This document shows, piece after piece, positions 16,535 through 62,245 of a DNA stretch of 64,000 nucleotides (the stretch's first letter is position 1; every line of letters begins with the position of its first letter). Location: NCBI RefSeq assembly GCF_002078355.1, contig NZ_CP015363.1, positions 1,240,001 to 1,304,000 on the forward strand. The letters are read 5' to 3'. This DNA comes from Ferroplasma acidiphilum (GTDB lineage: Archaea; Thermoplasmatota; Thermoplasmata; Thermoplasmatales; Thermoplasmataceae). Both the position numbers and the translations under genes were made by a program. The notes under the pieces were generated by a model. That model was not told where the DNA came from and searched no databases. It worked only from the letters and a program-made list of their open reading frames with translations.

Positions 16535-17500
16535 ATGAGAGAAGAATTCAGTTATGGAACTGTCGTATACTCTAAATTCAATAATGAATATAAATATCTA
16601 TTGCTCAAAAGGGAAGAGGGTTGGCTTGACTTCCCCAAAGGGCATATTGAAAAAGGAGAAGATGGAGTAAAAGCGGCATTAAGGGAGACATGTGAGGAAT
16701 CCGGCGTGTGTTTGCAGCCGGGAAATCTTGTCCCTGGTTTCTATTACAATATTGATTATTTTTTTACATATAAGGGAACTAAAATTCTAAAACATGTTGG
16801 CATGTATCTTTCCGAAATTTCACCTGATACAACAGTAAAAGTATCAAATGAACACCGTGGTTATGTATGGCTAAACTATCAGGAGGCAATGGAGGCGCTC
16901 AGATTCGGCAATCAGAAAGGCTTGCTTGAATATACAAGCACGTATATTGAAAAATTAGACAGGATGCGTGTCCTGAATAAAGAGTATGGTGAAATTTACA
17001 GAGGCAGGAAATGGGATTTAAGCACCGTTTTTGTTCCGGGAGAAGGAAATTTAAATGCTGCAATATTTATTGTAGGCCAGGCACCGGGAAGAAATGAGGA
17101 TATAATGAAAAAACCATTCGTTGGAAGAAGCGGCAAACTTCTTGAAAGCCTTATAACTGATGAATTGCACACGGATCGCGAGTCTCTCTATATCACCAGT
17201 GTAGTTCAATTCTTTCCTCCGGAAAACAGGGCACCATCTGATGAGGAAATAGCCCTTTGCCTTCCTTATCTTATGAAACAGATTGAAATAGTCAATCCTG
17301 CAATAATTGTCCTGCTAGGTGCAGTTGCTGCCCGTACACTGGCGCAGGTTAAAAGCATAATGAAAGAACATGGAAAGCTGTTTATGGATAAATATTATGT
17401 AACCCTGCATCCTGCCGCTGCCCTGCGGAATCCAGCAAATATAGAGATCATGAGATCTGATTTCAGGGCTCTGGAGAAGATTGTCAACGGGCGGGAATGA
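16535..17500 (+). CDS. Nudix hydrolase fused to a family 4-like uracil-DNA glycosylase
   Basis: 321 residues in two domains. Residues 1-140 are a Nudix hydrolase of the diadenosine-tetraphosphatase-like type, with an intact Nudix box at 36-58 (GHIEKGED, ALRETCEESGV). Residues 160-318 match family 4/5 uracil-DNA glycosylases: GEGN, IVGQAPGRNED (motif 1, 179-189), KPFVGRSGKLL, VVQFFPPENRAPSDEE, and HPAAA at 292-296 (motif 2). Family 4 enzymes carry a [4Fe-4S] cluster on four Cys; here the N-terminal pair is absent, the third position reads Phe (VVQFFPP), and only Cys242 remains. It may join nucleotide-pool cleaning with uracil removal, though glycosylase activity is unproven. TATA-like sequence (16508-16528) precedes the ATG. 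Confidence 0.85.
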   Translation: MREEFSYGTVVYSKFNNEYKYLLLKREEGWLDFPKGHIEKGEDGVKAALRETCEESGVCLQPGNLVPGFYYNIDYFFTYKGTKILKHVGMYLSEISPDTTVKVSNEHRGYVWLNYQEAMEALRFGNQKGLLEYTSTYIEKLDRMRVLNKEYGEIYRGRKWDLSTVFVPGEGNLNAAIFIVGQAPGRNEDIMKKPFVGRSGKLLESLITDELHTDRESLYITSVVQFFPPENRAPSDEEIALCLPYLMKQIEIVNPAIIVLLGAVAARTLAQVKSIMKEHGKLFMDKYYVTLHPAAALRNPANIEIMRSDFRALEKIVNGRE

Positions 17501-21751: not shown

Positions 21752-23794
21752 TTATTTTTCCTCAGATATTTTTACTTTTCTTATTAGCGATCCTGTTGAA
21801 TAAAAGCATTCCGAATAGGTGGAATAACTCCCGCCCGCAAGGCCCGATGGATCAATTTCATAGCCAAGGAACATACTGCTTTTAATCTTTCCGTGTTGCC
21901 TGAATATAAAATAGTTTATAGAATTCATAAGTATGGATTCTGAATAGTTATTCATATAATAATCATTTATATTCTGTGTTACCGTTATGAGAGAAGTCCG
22001 GAAGTGCCTGGAATTTCTGGCAAGCATATCTATAATCTCGGCCTCCCGGGAGTTTCTAAGAAATAGGTGGCTTTCATCCATAACAACTATTTTCTCTCCC
22101 TCCTCTTTTTCAACTGTAGAAATTATATAGCTGAATACCAGATCGAAGAACGCATCACGGATTTCTGCATTTTTATGCCCGAACCTGAATACTGTAAAAT
22201 TTCCTTCAAGTTTTACAGGTGTTTTGAATGGCATACTGTAAACAGCTCCCTGTGTACTTTTATTTCCAGAATAGCCCAGCCTGATTTCAGAAATCAATTC
22301 ATTGAACGTGGCAACACCGGATTTTGACATTAATCCTGTTAAAATTCCGGTTATATTGTTTTCACCTATGCCTGTCAGTTTTGCTATGGCGGTTGATATA
22401 ATATTTGCCATTTCCGGTGTTTCAATCATAAAATCTACATAGTCCCCAAGAGATAGGTCTATCACGTGCCCGTAAGAGTATTCTCCTAGCGGGTCAATGA
22501 CATAAACCTTCGCATTCCGATTCTGATCCAGCAATTTTTTTGCAAAATAAGATTTTCCGGAACCTGTTTCGCCTGTTATGGCAATATTATATGAATTGCC
22601 CATGAATGGCTGGAAGTAAAATGGCTTCCCGGTTATTGCATTGATTCCAAGTGGTTCCGCTGCCCGATCTGGAATAGGCGTAAATGAACATGGGAAGAGT
22701 TCTGATATTGAAGCAGAATCCAGCATATATTTAATGCCCTGCCCCTGCAGTTCAAGTGGATTGAATGAATTCCTGTTAAAATAATTGAAAGTTTTTAACC
22801 TGAATCCTGCAGATTCCATTGTTTTTTTGAATGTTTCGGCATTAGAGCGGAGAATAGCCGGGTGCTCTGATATTACAGAGAACCTCACCGAAGCATTATA
22901 TAGCTTCTCTTTCCCTGACATATATTCCAGTGCAGAGATCTGTTTTTTTATAAGCCCGGCGTAATGCCCTGTTTTTGTATAAACTATTTCTGCTTTCCTG
23001 GACGCCAGAAGCCTTTTAACCTGCATCTCATGGTTCTTAATCCGGTTGATTTCCATGTTAATTTCAACCGTAAAACCCATTTTTTCAATAAGGGTTTGAT
23101 AAAAGAAATCCTGGGAATAATCTGTATCTAGCAGATCAAAGTATGCCATGTAAAACCCGCCGGCACCTATATATTTTAACTCCGGGTTTACATTTGCAGG
23201 AAATATTGATTTAATTGTATTTTCATCATCAACAGCTTTTCCATGCAGGGCAGTGTTTGAAACGATAGCAGATATGTTTCTTTTCAATAAATCCATGGAT
23301 GTTTCAATGGCTGATCCATGTGTTTTTAATATAACAAAAGTTCTGTAATAATTTTTGCCGTTGTAAACTTTCGTTTTTGTTATGATATTTGCACTGCAAT
23401 CCAGATTATCGATTACATTCATTATGGCCCTTATATGGTTTGGTTTCTGGCTATCTGTATATAATTCTCGATTTTCTATTTCCACTGCTGAAAATATATC
23501 CTGCCCCAGGATGCAGAATAAAAACCCATTGCGGACAAATTTTATATTATGCCCTGCTACCCCGTGAAAATAGAGTTTTCTCAGTTTATAAATGTTTGAG
23601 AAGTCAAATTTAATGTATGCCATAAACCCGAAATATATTGCAACGGCAGAAATAGTGACAGGCAATGATATGGTGAAAAGTATTGCCGCCATGGATACTC
23701 CAGAAAGTATGATAACAAATTTCTCCACAGGCATTCCGTATATGTATGATTTAAAATTATAAACGTTTGAAGGAATTTTAATGTATACCACCAT
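21752..23794 (-). CDS. VirB3(PrgI)-VirB4 fusion ATPase of a Ced/Ted-like DNA-transfer system
   Basis: 680 residues from the ATG at 23794. Residues 1-77 resemble PrgI/VirB3: MVVYIKIPSNVYNFKSYIYG, then a hydrophobic hairpin (about 23-62) and a basic helix (IYKLRKLYF). A VirB4-type N domain and the ATPase follow: Walker A GETGSGKS at 408-415, DPLGEY, Walker B VVMDESH at 570-576, and RHFRTSLITVTQN (sensor/arginine region). VirB4 and CedB-type motors energise pilus assembly or DNA passage in the membrane. An upstream start at 23863 would make it overlap the previous gene by 86 bases; 23794 gives 17 bases and the expected PrgI start. Confidence 0.85.
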   Translation of the reverse strand: MVVYIKIPSNVYNFKSYIYGMPVEKFVIILSGVSMAAILFTISLPVTISAVAIYFGFMAYIKFDFSNIYKLRKLYFHGVAGHNIKFVRNGFLFCILGQDIFSAVEIENRELYTDSQKPNHIRAIMNVIDNLDCSANIITKTKVYNGKNYYRTFVILKTHGSAIETSMDLLKRNISAIVSNTALHGKAVDDENTIKSIFPANVNPELKYIGAGGFYMAYFDLLDTDYSQDFFYQTLIEKMGFTVEINMEINRIKNHEMQVKRLLASRKAEIVYTKTGHYAGLIKKQISALEYMSGKEKLYNASVRFSVISEHPAILRSNAETFKKTMESAGFRLKTFNYFNRNSFNPLELQGQGIKYMLDSASISELFPCSFTPIPDRAAEPLGINAITGKPFYFQPFMGNSYNIAITGETGSGKSYFAKKLLDQNRNAKVYVIDPLGEYSYGHVIDLSLGDYVDFMIETPEMANIISTAIAKLTGIGENNITGILTGLMSKSGVATFNELISEIRLGYSGNKSTQGAVYSMPFKTPVKLEGNFTVFRFGHKNAEIRDAFFDLVFSYIISTVEKEEGEKIVVMDESHLFLRNSREAEIIDMLARNSRHFRTSLITVTQNINDYYMNNYSESILMNSINYFIFRQHGKIKSSMFLGYEIDPSGLAGGSYSTYSECFYSTGSLIRKVKISEEK

Positions 23795-24701
23795 TTTCGT
23801 CGATAATTCCAGGTATCCGGCTTTCTGATGTATCCGGATCAATGCCGAAATTAATTCCTCCATTCAGCACAGAAACAGGATTTATATCGCCAATTCCGGA
23901 GGAGATTTCAGTTACAGCCGCATCTGCGTTAAGAAAATTCATAGTTCCCTGGAAATACCTGTACATTTCGGTAACAAAGAACAATGGTGCAGTTGCAGCT
24001 ACATAAATCAATCCAATTTCAAGAAATGGATTATTGAATAGGCCTATAAGATAAAGAATAATTATGGTAAAAAAAGGGAAAAATGCAAGTTCAAAGAAAA
24101 TCCTGTACAGTTTTAGTATTTGCTTTTCGCTGCCCGGGATAATCAACAGTAAAGATGCTGCCGGCATAAGCAGAATAAAGAACAGAATTAGGGCCTGCCT
24201 GATTATAAGTATGCCGAAAAGGAGCATAATTGCCATGACAAATGTTCCGGTAAATAGAATTGATATAAGGCTATTTGAGAAAGACAGCCCGGAAAATTCC
24301 AGTCCGTACCAGCTTGTTTTTAACGAATATATATTATTATAAAATACCAGGGAAATACTGATAAATAACATGGATATTCTGTAGGATGCTTCAAAAAGTA
24401 TGATGGCGGCGAATGTTTTTATTAAAAATTTAGCGGGCGGATATGGCTTTATAAATGAGTTGTATACAAGCATAACTAGGGCAGAAATTGTTATTATTCC
24501 CAGAATAACGTCTGAATAAACATTATAAAAAAGATAGTTATAGAAATTAATGAATGGGGAATTCCCCTTTATAAACTGTTCATAGGAATATTCCGGGTTA
24601 AGTCCGTATTTTACCATCATATGCCATAGCAATTCTATTGAAGGTCGAGAGAGGTCTATTATAGCCTTTACAATTTCCTGGAAAATTGAGGTATAGGTCA
24701 T
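23778..24701 (-). CDS. VirB6/TrbL/CedA-like polytopic membrane channel
   Basis: 307 residues. Six membrane helices: about 62-81, 92-120, 140-164, 167-189, 200-220 and 225-245. The central LIIRQALILFFILLMPAASLLLIIPGSEK is like the VirB6/TrbL core (helix, Pro-rich turn, then a charged kink before the next helix). The last 55 residues are hydrophilic. In Ced and Ted systems this protein forms the membrane pore. Its first 50 residues hold an amphipathic region. It overlaps both neighbours (4 and 17 bases), so all three genes form one coupled operon. Homology is inferred from topology and position. Confidence 0.72.
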   Translation of the reverse strand: MTYTSIFQEIVKAIIDLSRPSIELLWHMMVKYGLNPEYSYEQFIKGNSPFINFYNYLFYNVYSDVILGIITISALVMLVYNSFIKPYPPAKFLIKTFAAIILFEASYRISMLFISISLVFYNNIYSLKTSWYGLEFSGLSFSNSLISILFTGTFVMAIMLLFGILIIRQALILFFILLMPAASLLLIIPGSEKQILKLYRIFFELAFFPFFTIIILYLIGLFNNPFLEIGLIYVAATAPLFFVTEMYRYFQGTMNFLNADAAVTEISSGIGDINPVSVLNGGINFGIDPDTSESRIPGIIDENGGIH

Positions 24702-24955
24702 ACTTTACCGGTAACTACATAATTGAAAACGGTAAATAATATGCCGCTGATTGCCATAATAAATATTACTGTGCCTATAGCAGCATTCTTAAGCCGTTCC
24801 CTTGCCATTATTTTTTTGTTCTCATCAGTACTGAAGAAGTTTAGTGCAATCGGTATCCACAGGAGAGTAATAAGAACTGCAGATACTGATATAACTATAT
24901 CATCTATTCTTCCCATCATTGCATTGATTGATGCAATGGCGTAGTCAATTAACAT
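24698..24955 (-). CDS. VirB2/TrbC/CedA1-like pilin-type protein
   Basis: 85 residues. Two hydrophobic helices (about 20-41 and 60-81) separated by a basic loop (ENKKIMARERLKNAA) give the topology of VirB2-type T4SS pilins and of CedA1. There is no cleavable leader; in the pilin family the helices form the fibre packed with lipid. ATG at 24955 is preceded by an AT-rich region (24960-24985) that holds a likely TATA box. It is the first gene of the operon. A pilus function is inference. Confidence 0.65.
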   Translation of the reverse strand: MLIDYAIASINAMMGRIDDIVISVSAVLITLLWIPIALNFFSTDENKKIMARERLKNAAIGTVIFIMAISGILFTVFNYVVTGKV

Positions 24956-25839: not shown

Positions 25840-26634
25840 TTATATTTTTACATTCATATTGGTATAAAATGATACTTTTCTTGCATTTGTTTCCCCCGGT
25901 TTACCATTCTCATTTTCATATTCCTTTACAAACGAGGGTTTGCCGAATACTTTTACAGGGAGTTTATCCGTGGAATTAAAATTCATTAAATATTTGCCTT
26001 TAATGCTACCCAGAGTATTCCTCAACTCAATGAAATCACTTTCAAGAAAATTGTGCACATACCAGTCCTTTCCGGGATATGGAGGGTCCAGGTAAAAAAA
26101 TGTGTCCGGATCATTATATTTGTCTATAACTTCGCGGAAATCCATATTTTCTATTTTCATCTTCCTTATTTTTGATTCCGCCTTAAGAAGGTTGGATACA
26201 TTCTTTCTATATGTGCCGAAAAGTGATTTGTCTTTCTTTCCATAGCTATTGCCCATTCCCCCGAAACCGGTGTTAAAATTAAAAAAAATTGAAAAAGCCT
26301 TTTCAATCTCTGGATTTCCCGTATCCATAACTATTCTACCATCATAATAGTCAAAAAACATTTTTCTGTCCCGTGCCACGGCATCGGCTGCCCTGTAAAG
26401 CTGCGAAAAGTTATTTTTAAGTGAATTAAATAATATAAAAAGTTCCCTGTTAAGGTCATTGTATACCTCAATCCCGGCATGGATATTGATGATCACAGAA
26501 CCTGAACCGGAAAACACGTCAACAAACCTGGTGCATTGTGATATGTCAAACAACCGCTGTATTTCACCTACTATGGCAGTTTTCGATCCAGGGTATTTCA
26601 TTATTCTCAACATATGAGATTTAATGTTATGCAC
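25840..26634 (-). CDS. D12-class adenine-specific DNA methyltransferase (Dam-like)
   Basis: 264 residues. SAM motif I is FVDVFSGSGSVII, the N-terminal signature MKYPGSKTAIVGEI, and the catalytic DPPY in FFYLDPPYPGK. It transfers methyl to N6 of adenine. No restriction endonuclease is adjacent, so it is probably an orphan methylase used for marking or control. Several starts are possible: 26634, 26613 (MLRIMKYPGSK) and 26601 (MKYPGSK). It is next to the putative DNA-transfer operon, with the DUF72 gene between. Confidence 0.88.
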   Translation of the reverse strand: MHNIKSHMLRIMKYPGSKTAIVGEIQRLFDISQCTRFVDVFSGSGSVIINIHAGIEVYNDLNRELFILFNSLKNNFSQLYRAADAVARDRKMFFDYYDGRIVMDTGNPEIEKAFSIFFNFNTGFGGMGNSYGKKDKSLFGTYRKNVSNLLKAESKIRKMKIENMDFREVIDKYNDPDTFFYLDPPYPGKDWYVHNFLESDFIELRNTLGSIKGKYLMNFNSTDKLPVKVFGKPSFVKEYENENGKPGETNARKVSFYTNMNVKI

Positions 26635-61088: not shown

Positions 61089-62245
61089 ATATTAAAGAAT
61101 TCAAACCGTATATATTCTCAGGAAACATAGTAGATTCAGTATCGCCTCCATTCGACACAATAACAATTGAACAGGAAAAAAAGCTCCGGGCTGCAAAGTA
61201 TAACATTACAGCATTAAGCCTTCCGGAGTATGGAAATTCCAGTTTAACACCGGAAAAACTCATCAAAAAATGGATTGGCGATAATGTTATCTACCCTTAC
61301 GGGAAAGATATTATAATAATATTGAAACAGGTATTTTACATTAATAAGGAAATTATTACAAGGTACGGCATCATATCGCTTGCGGAAATAGATAGTAGCC
61401 TGAAAGCACATGAAAGTACATTTGAAAAACAGGTTCTGGAAAGAAAAAATGTAATGATCTCACTGAACGGGGAGCCGGAGCCAATTTTCATTGTTGTGCC
61501 AGATAATGGGTTTGATAAAATGGTCAGGAGATTTGCCAGCAACCTTGAGGAAAAATTCAAATTTGAGGAGCCGAGTGGAGTGGAAAATTATGTTTATTTT
61601 CTGGAAGACCAGGAAAAAATAGAAAAACTGAAAGATTCCATAAAGAATGACCAGGGGATAGTTGCGGATGGGCACCACCGTACACAGGCAATAAAGGATT
61701 TAAAAAAGGAAACAGGAGACAGTTTCTGGAATTATGCCATGGCATATATAACTTCAATATATGACAATGGATTAATGATTGGTGGAGTAGACAGGCTTGT
61801 CTACAGGACCAACTTTGAGGAGAATATCCCTAAAATAGAAAATTTATTTGACGTAACTGTTGAACGTACAATAGTGGAAGATAATAATATTCGTGTTTAT
61901 AGCAGGGGGCTTTTCTATAAGCTTGTACCTAAAAAATATGCAATTGACCAGGTAATGGATAGCAAGTATGAAGTATCCACTGAAATAGTAAATAAGATAT
62001 TATTCGGGGAAGTGCTGGGAATTAACAAAAGTAACATGCAAACAAAAATAGGGTATATATATAATACCACAGATGCCATAAATGCGGTGGATATGCATGA
62101 ATGCGACTTTGCCATTATAATACCGCCATGGCAGAAGGATGTTTTCCTGAAAATGGCTCTGGATGGCGTAATATTCCCGCAGAAATCAACATATTTTTAT
62201 CCAAAAATCCCATCAGGAATTGCTATTTACCTCAAGCCATCGTAG
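61085..62245 (+). CDS. DUF1015 protein overlapping a tRNA gene
   Basis: 386 residues. KEFKPYIFS, IVDSVSPPFDTITIEQ, GIVADGHHRTQAIKDL (the HHR signature) and NAVDMHECDFAIIIPPW are DUF1015 features; the HHR motif recalls ParB-like kinases but the activity is unknown. Its final two codons and stop (Pro-Ser-stop) are made by the first ten bases of tRNA-Thr at 62236. In a typical genome such coding-tRNA overlap is rare. It is the last gene of the trmB-nfo-DUF1015 run, with ATGA overlap to nfo. Confidence 0.88.
   Translation: MNIKEFKPYIFSGNIVDSVSPPFDTITIEQEKKLRAAKYNITALSLPEYGNSSLTPEKLIKKWIGDNVIYPYGKDIIIILKQVFYINKEIITRYGIISLAEIDSSLKAHESTFEKQVLERKNVMISLNGEPEPIFIVVPDNGFDKMVRRFASNLEEKFKFEEPSGVENYVYFLEDQEKIEKLKDSIKNDQGIVADGHHRTQAIKDLKKETGDSFWNYAMAYITSIYDNGLMIGGVDRLVYRTNFEENIPKIENLFDVTVERTIVEDNNIRVYSRGLFYKLVPKKYAIDQVMDSKYEVSTEIVNKILFGEVLGINKSNMQTKIGYIYNTTDAINAVDMHECDFAIIIPPWQKDVFLKMALDGVIFPQKSTYFYPKIPSGIAIYLKPS

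Follow-up and report, generated by a model that had tools for sequence, protein, structure and literature searches.

In the open literature searched for this work, Ced and Ted of Crenarchaeota are the only type IV secretion systems (T4SS) described as domesticated for DNA exchange. Both are built around a chromosomal set of VirB2, VirB6 and VirB4 without a relaxase (PMC9905601). The Ced system of Sulfolobales (CedA, CedA1, CedA2, CedB, CedD and CedE) imports DNA (PMC9905601, PMC11868833). In Thermoproteales, VirB4 takes the place of CedB/CedD (PMC11868833). Among bacteria, the VirB4 clade of Patescibacteria falls inside the MPF_FATA class (PMC12102498). Within the Thermoplasmataceae, Golyshina et al. 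(2016) counted, for Cuniculiplasma divulgatum, a VirB4 together with a multipass protein and small membrane proteins among the T4SS components (PMC5155288). These genes are probably the same cluster as the one described here; that listing assigns no pilin, VirB6 or VirB3, draws no link to Ced or Ted and offers no survey of the family. Our search returned no paper naming the pilin or the VirB6 of this cassette, showing its inheritance across the family or proposing a role in DNA exchange, and none proposing a DNA-transfer machine for Ferroplasma.

The window, a stretch of 64,000 nucleotides, corresponds to bases 1240001-1304000 of the single-contig genome of Ferroplasma acidiphilum (1,826,943 bases). 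On its minus strand, positions 21752-24955 carry three overlapping genes, with the predicted products listed in the table. The first-pass annotation had placed three open reading frames here, each overlapping the next, and all three are indeed there, with overlaps of 4 bp between the pilin and VirB6 genes (24698-24701) and 17 bp between the VirB6 and ATPase genes (23778-23794). An alternative in-frame ATG at 23863 would extend the ATPase to 703 residues; in the family alignment, the shorter start is the better supported.

Table. Predicted features of the T4SS cassette of F. acidiphilum (positions in the window).
Feature	Position	Strand	Remarks
VirB2-type pilin	24698..24955	-	85 aa, 2 TM, two hydrophobic helices
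VirB6-type polytopic membrane protein (translocation channel)	23778..24701	-	307 aa, 6 TM
VirB3-VirB4 fusion ATPase	21752..23794	-	680 aa
VirB3/PrgI-like two-helix segment, ATPase N-terminus	23525..23794	-	HMM-HMM match to Patescibacteria PrgI-like proteins
Walker A motif GETGSGKS of ATPase	22550..22573	-	Sequence; nearly invariant in family alignment
Walker B motif KIVVMDE of ATPase	22073..22093	-	Sequence; E574 invariant in family alignment

The cassette is flanked by ordinary chromosomal housekeeping genes. No transposase or integrase was present among the genes read around it, in agreement with the mobile-element ends having been reported missing. No tRNA end was found at the cassette, the sole tRNA of the window being at 62235, and no effector or immunity genes were seen alongside. 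Two genes of the window bear on DNA repair. One, at 16535-17500, joins a Nudix hydrolase to a uracil-DNA glycosylase (UDG) in a single 321-aa protein; the other, at 25840, codes for a D12 adenine methylase. Nearby repair genes had been noted before, but these two make a thin case: they do not adjoin the cassette outside the genus, and no conserved repair-gene neighbour appeared among the family loci read. Repair neighbours were therefore dropped as evidence.

The ATPase matched the AAA_10 and TraG P-loop families, both over the Pfam cut-off. Its best NCBIfam fits were VirB4/TraC models (mycoplasma ICE VirB4, 7.5e-23; TraC, 3.6e-20), with scores that fall short of the equivalog cut-offs of these models. 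The solved structure nearest to the family profile was Thermoanaerobacter VirB4 (4ag5, 2.9e-13). In HMM-HMM comparison, the N-terminus aligned with the PrgI/VirB3-like profile of Patescibacteria (probability 84.5, E 7e-6), and the gene is therefore read as a VirB3-VirB4 fusion. About half of the genera have the VirB3 part and the VirB4 N-domain as a gene of their own, of about 240 aa. From these matches, the gene is predicted to code for a full VirB4 ATPase with an N-terminal VirB3 part, as first proposed.

The 307-aa protein alone gave no relevant match in Pfam or NCBIfam, and neither did the VirB6-like proteins of the family taken singly; profile-profile comparison was therefore needed. Against the VirB6 groups of Patescibacteria, the family profile scored 58.6, 77.5, 95.0 and 97.6% (E down to 3e-12), and against VirB6-like proteins of other Thermoplasmata 96.2-99.0%, while 32 unrelated multi-pass membrane families used as controls reached at most 0.5%. 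Two of three Patescibacteria VirB6 proteins scanned passed the Pfam TrbL/VirB6 cut-off. A PDB sequence search with the family profile returned nothing meaningful. An AlphaFold model with a mean pLDDT of 77.9 and high values in the helices was also compared with 350,542 PDB chains, and ranks 1-5 were all chains of R388 TrwI/VirB6. Each of these fold matches is weak on its own (E 0.1-0.4, probability 0.51-0.77); the ranking is specific. Moreover, all family loci read have the gene between those for the pilin and VirB3-VirB4, as do several loci of DHVE2 and Patescibacteria. Profile, model and gene position thus all support the earlier reading of a six-helix VirB6/TrbL-like protein, which by eye is the weakest of the three assignments.

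The Pfam T4SS_pilin model was found in 25/25 members of the pilin family (best 1.2e-7), and the mycoplasma-ICE pilin model of NCBIfam in 23/25 (best 2.5e-7). The F. acidiphilum pilin alone reached 1.7e-4 and 22.0 bits against T4SS_pilin, under the Pfam cut-off of 26.6 bits. On these matches, the gene is predicted to encode a VirB2-type pilin, in line with the first proposal. The profile did not match the one Patescibacteria pilin compared; homology with the pilins of that group therefore rests on the common Pfam model. No solved pilin was found by PDB sequence search with the profile. The AlphaFold model of the pilin, a single straight helix (pTM 0.34) without PDB match, was discarded as evidence. 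Thus, a fold match for the two small proteins, suggested as a check by the first-pass annotation, was obtained for the VirB6-like protein, with weak E-values, and not for the pilin.

In T4SS loci of DHVE2/Aciduliprofundum, several consecutive proteins of 320-405 aa carry a C-terminal VirB2-type pilin domain. They begin with a signal-peptide-like segment, followed by a long, probably extracellular domain, Gly/Ser/Trp-rich in one case. Such pilins with built-in surface domains are seen in L063 (9426-15067; G006, Aciduliprofundum-like), L124 and L126.

Judged by these assignments, the cassette contains the parts of a minimal monoderm-type T4SS, namely VirB4, VirB6, VirB2 and VirB3/PrgI. It looks most like the machines of Patescibacteria and mycoplasma ICEs. 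A collection scan with the Aciduliprofundum-type VirB4 returned DHVE2 and Patescibacteria, the latter being the closest detectable relatives outside Thermoplasmata; no Crenarchaeota were among its matches. Patescibacteria share the VirB6, PrgI and pilin families found here, the order pilin - VirB6 - VirB3/PrgI - VirB4 in several loci, and a relaxase that is mostly absent. Their VirB3 and VirB4 N-domain are however separate genes, and many of their loci contain large extra proteins. The mycoplasma ICE machinery (Mbov_0395/0397 families) gave the best single NCBIfam conjugation matches of both the pilin family and the ATPase; unlike the cassette, it belongs to mobile elements and has a VirD4.

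Ced resembles the cassette in having a chromosomal pilin, channel and ATPase. Strict membership in Ced, as first considered, did not hold. The HMM search proposed for this purpose, with CedA model NF041796, gave no match in the F. acidiphilum genome at E 10 (the S. acidocaldarius control was positive) and none among 23 VirB6-like family members. The CedB model matched 8/13 ATPase family members weakly (best 1.1e-9), whereas VirB4 models fitted far better, up to 1.8e-30; in the F. acidiphilum genome it picked solely a 528-aa HerA-like ORF. The ATPase is thus a full VirB4 by these scores, not a CedB. Ced is also Ups-assisted through cell aggregation, whereas no type IV pilus ATPase for an Ups-like pilus was found here. 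Ted of Thermoproteales (TedA/B/C) has a chromosomal VirB2 pilin, VirB6 and VirB4, no relaxase and no described VirD4 (PMC9905601). The cassette likewise has chromosomal VirB2, VirB6 and VirB4 without a relaxase, a likeness in gene set, and Ted is set beside it by description. Ted belongs to another phylum, and its loci have HerA/ParA/Rad50 neighbours absent from the cassette, which is a compact operon of three genes whose VirB3 and VirB4 are fused. The cassette probably works like Ced and Ted.

No MOB relaxase (PF03432 family) was matched anywhere in the F. acidiphilum genome. VirD4/TraG-D was also absent from it (PF12696 and a family VirD4-like query), with only HerA being found; the relaxase and coupling ATPase had previously been reported missing from the vicinity. 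ComEC was likewise missing, and no type IV pilus ATPase passed the Pfam cut-off. With none of these four detectable, the cassette is read as a domesticated T4SS and not a mobile element. Indeed, the cassette showed none of the marks of a conjugative plasmid or ICE (PF03432 relaxase, VirD4, patchy distribution and element ends), and the relaxase or ICE border that would have contradicted the first proposal was not found, nor was any integrase or tRNA end in the surroundings read.

In 16/19 genera, one or more TrwB/TraG-like (VirD4-like) ATPases of 600-700 aa are encoded at a separate locus. No more than one membrane helix is predicted in them, and they have an extra C-terminal domain without a Pfam name. 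In those at L076 and L078-L085 (e.g. L083 628-2598), this C-terminal region is conserved, with an invariant PD...ExExSD...K, and by eye it resembles a PD-(D/E)XK nuclease. The protein could possibly combine a coupling protein with a nuclease replacing the relaxase. The three genera without it (g1, g2 and g13) form a single clade in both trees described below, so a single loss is likely; the cassette is intact in them.

A VirB4 match was obtained in 73/77 genomes of the family, in all 19/19 genera and in 10/10 genomes of the genus, so the range is much wider than one genome. Conservation of gene order in other Thermoplasmatales, which had been named as support for the proposal, was complete in the family: 37/37 loci read, representing 17 genera, kept pilin-VirB6-VirB4. 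The dN/dS values were 0.00-0.21 for all three genes and 0.00-0.06 for the pilin, and all three are under purifying selection. Because of this selection and the constant order, the cassette is no chance set of ORFs. In the phylum sample, strong matches were confined to the order itself and one other family of the class, plus one weak case. GC-rich genomes of another family of the class (f7; L112-L123) have VirB4-like genes, some of which stand beside a VirB3-like and a DNA methylase-like gene.

In most genera outside the Ferroplasma clade, the flanks are common, with a hotdog-fold, thioesterase-like gene upstream and, among others, a small convergent two-helix gene downstream. The latter (cluster c3) encodes a mostly two-helix membrane protein of 63-152 aa, directly after virB4 on the other strand at 23 loci (L042-L068), and is a near-constant convergent neighbour of the cassette in these genera. 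Within the Ferroplasma clade, the cassette occupies other chromosomal sites with flanks common to the species there, indicating that it moved as a unit. The tree of the three proteins agreed with that of an RpoB fragment in 17/33 splits and 17/27 strong ones. The six strong conflicts concern mainly two draft genomes, G079 and G108, together with where single genera are placed. L055 and L058, the cassettes of these drafts, group with those of other genera, against RpoB, which reflects either exchange of the entire cassette at the same site or misbinning of the contigs. No plasmid record covered 80% of the ATPase, and the VirB6-like protein matched none. Altogether, the cassette is chromosomal and vertically inherited in nearly all of the Thermoplasmataceae, in a family tree that is largely congruent, and the view that it is not a conjugative plasmid stands. 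The operon is a well-supported case of a domesticated minimal T4SS.

DNA exchange between relatives, with import, is the likeliest function, and we give it slightly better than even chances; what is carried, which way it moves and any tie to repair are inferred parts of that proposal. The pilin would form a thin conjugation-type pilus or a membrane conduit, and the VirB6-type protein, by homology, a membrane channel. The VirB3-VirB4 ATPase would dock at this channel, assemble the pilus and drive DNA over the membrane. Chromosomal DNA would thus pass between related cells into the cell running the machine, and might then serve recombinational repair. Import is proposed because Ced and Ted share the chromosomal, relaxase-free and VirD4-free gene set, and because Ced imports DNA. 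Ferroplasma populations recombine heavily (PMC2704941). Against import, sequence does not reveal which way transport runs, and the VirD4-like ATPase located elsewhere in most genera would suit an exporter too. The missing CedA match, the lack of conserved repair neighbours and of an aggregation pilus, and the weak VirB6 fold E-values also count against it.

The same machine could export DNA, acting as a donor-side release or mating channel that plasmids lacking their own channel might hijack. Bacterial conjugative VirB4/VirB6/VirB2 machines are exporters, the unlinked VirD4/TrwB-like ATPases would fit, and CedA1, CedE and Ups matter for export too in Saccharolobus (PMC11868833). However, although neither VirD4 nor relaxase was found in the F. 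acidiphilum genome, the cassette stays under purifying selection and is present in all ten genomes of the genus, and we regard export as unlikely. Slightly less probable still is protein secretion or an adhesive pilus with no DNA moved. T4SS are able to carry proteins, and the cassette could be the only pilus of F. acidiphilum because no other pilus ATPase rises above the Pfam cut-off; the long extracellular domains fused to the pilin domain in the DHVE2/Aciduliprofundum relatives would also suit adhesion. The pilin here is however a bare 85-aa unit, and the cassette is flanked by housekeeping genes, with no effector or immunity genes alongside. Finally, a remnant of an integrated conjugative element, decaying or merely resident, would account for gene families shared with such elements and for the different chromosomal places of the cassette among lineages of the genus. 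This is highly improbable given the near-universal distribution, intact order, low dN/dS and lack of an integrase, relaxase, tRNA end, plasmid record covering the cassette and plasmid match for VirB6. As a general account, a decaying ICE was rejected on the distribution, synteny and dN/dS of the cassette.

DNA exchange with import therefore remains our preferred reading, and the cassette is the best candidate yet for DNA swapping among Thermoplasmataceae. More tentatively, and at somewhat less than even chances, a DNA-exchange machine inherited across the family and independent of mobile elements and type IV pili might drive the extensive recombination of natural Ferroplasma populations, with genera outside the Ferroplasma clade perhaps feeding it through the unlinked VirD4-like ATPase. 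If true, this would be a family-wide, vertically inherited euryarchaeal counterpart of Ced and Ted, and the trait would extend further than has been assumed. Ferroplasma is a textbook example of recombination across whole populations (Tyson 2004, Eppley 2007; review, PMC2704941). The function of the cassette, plausible and at candidate stage, would bear on this well-known case. With three named candidate genes, in a genome without ComEC or a recognisable type IV pilus ATPase, the question of DNA transfer in Ferroplasma becomes directly testable.
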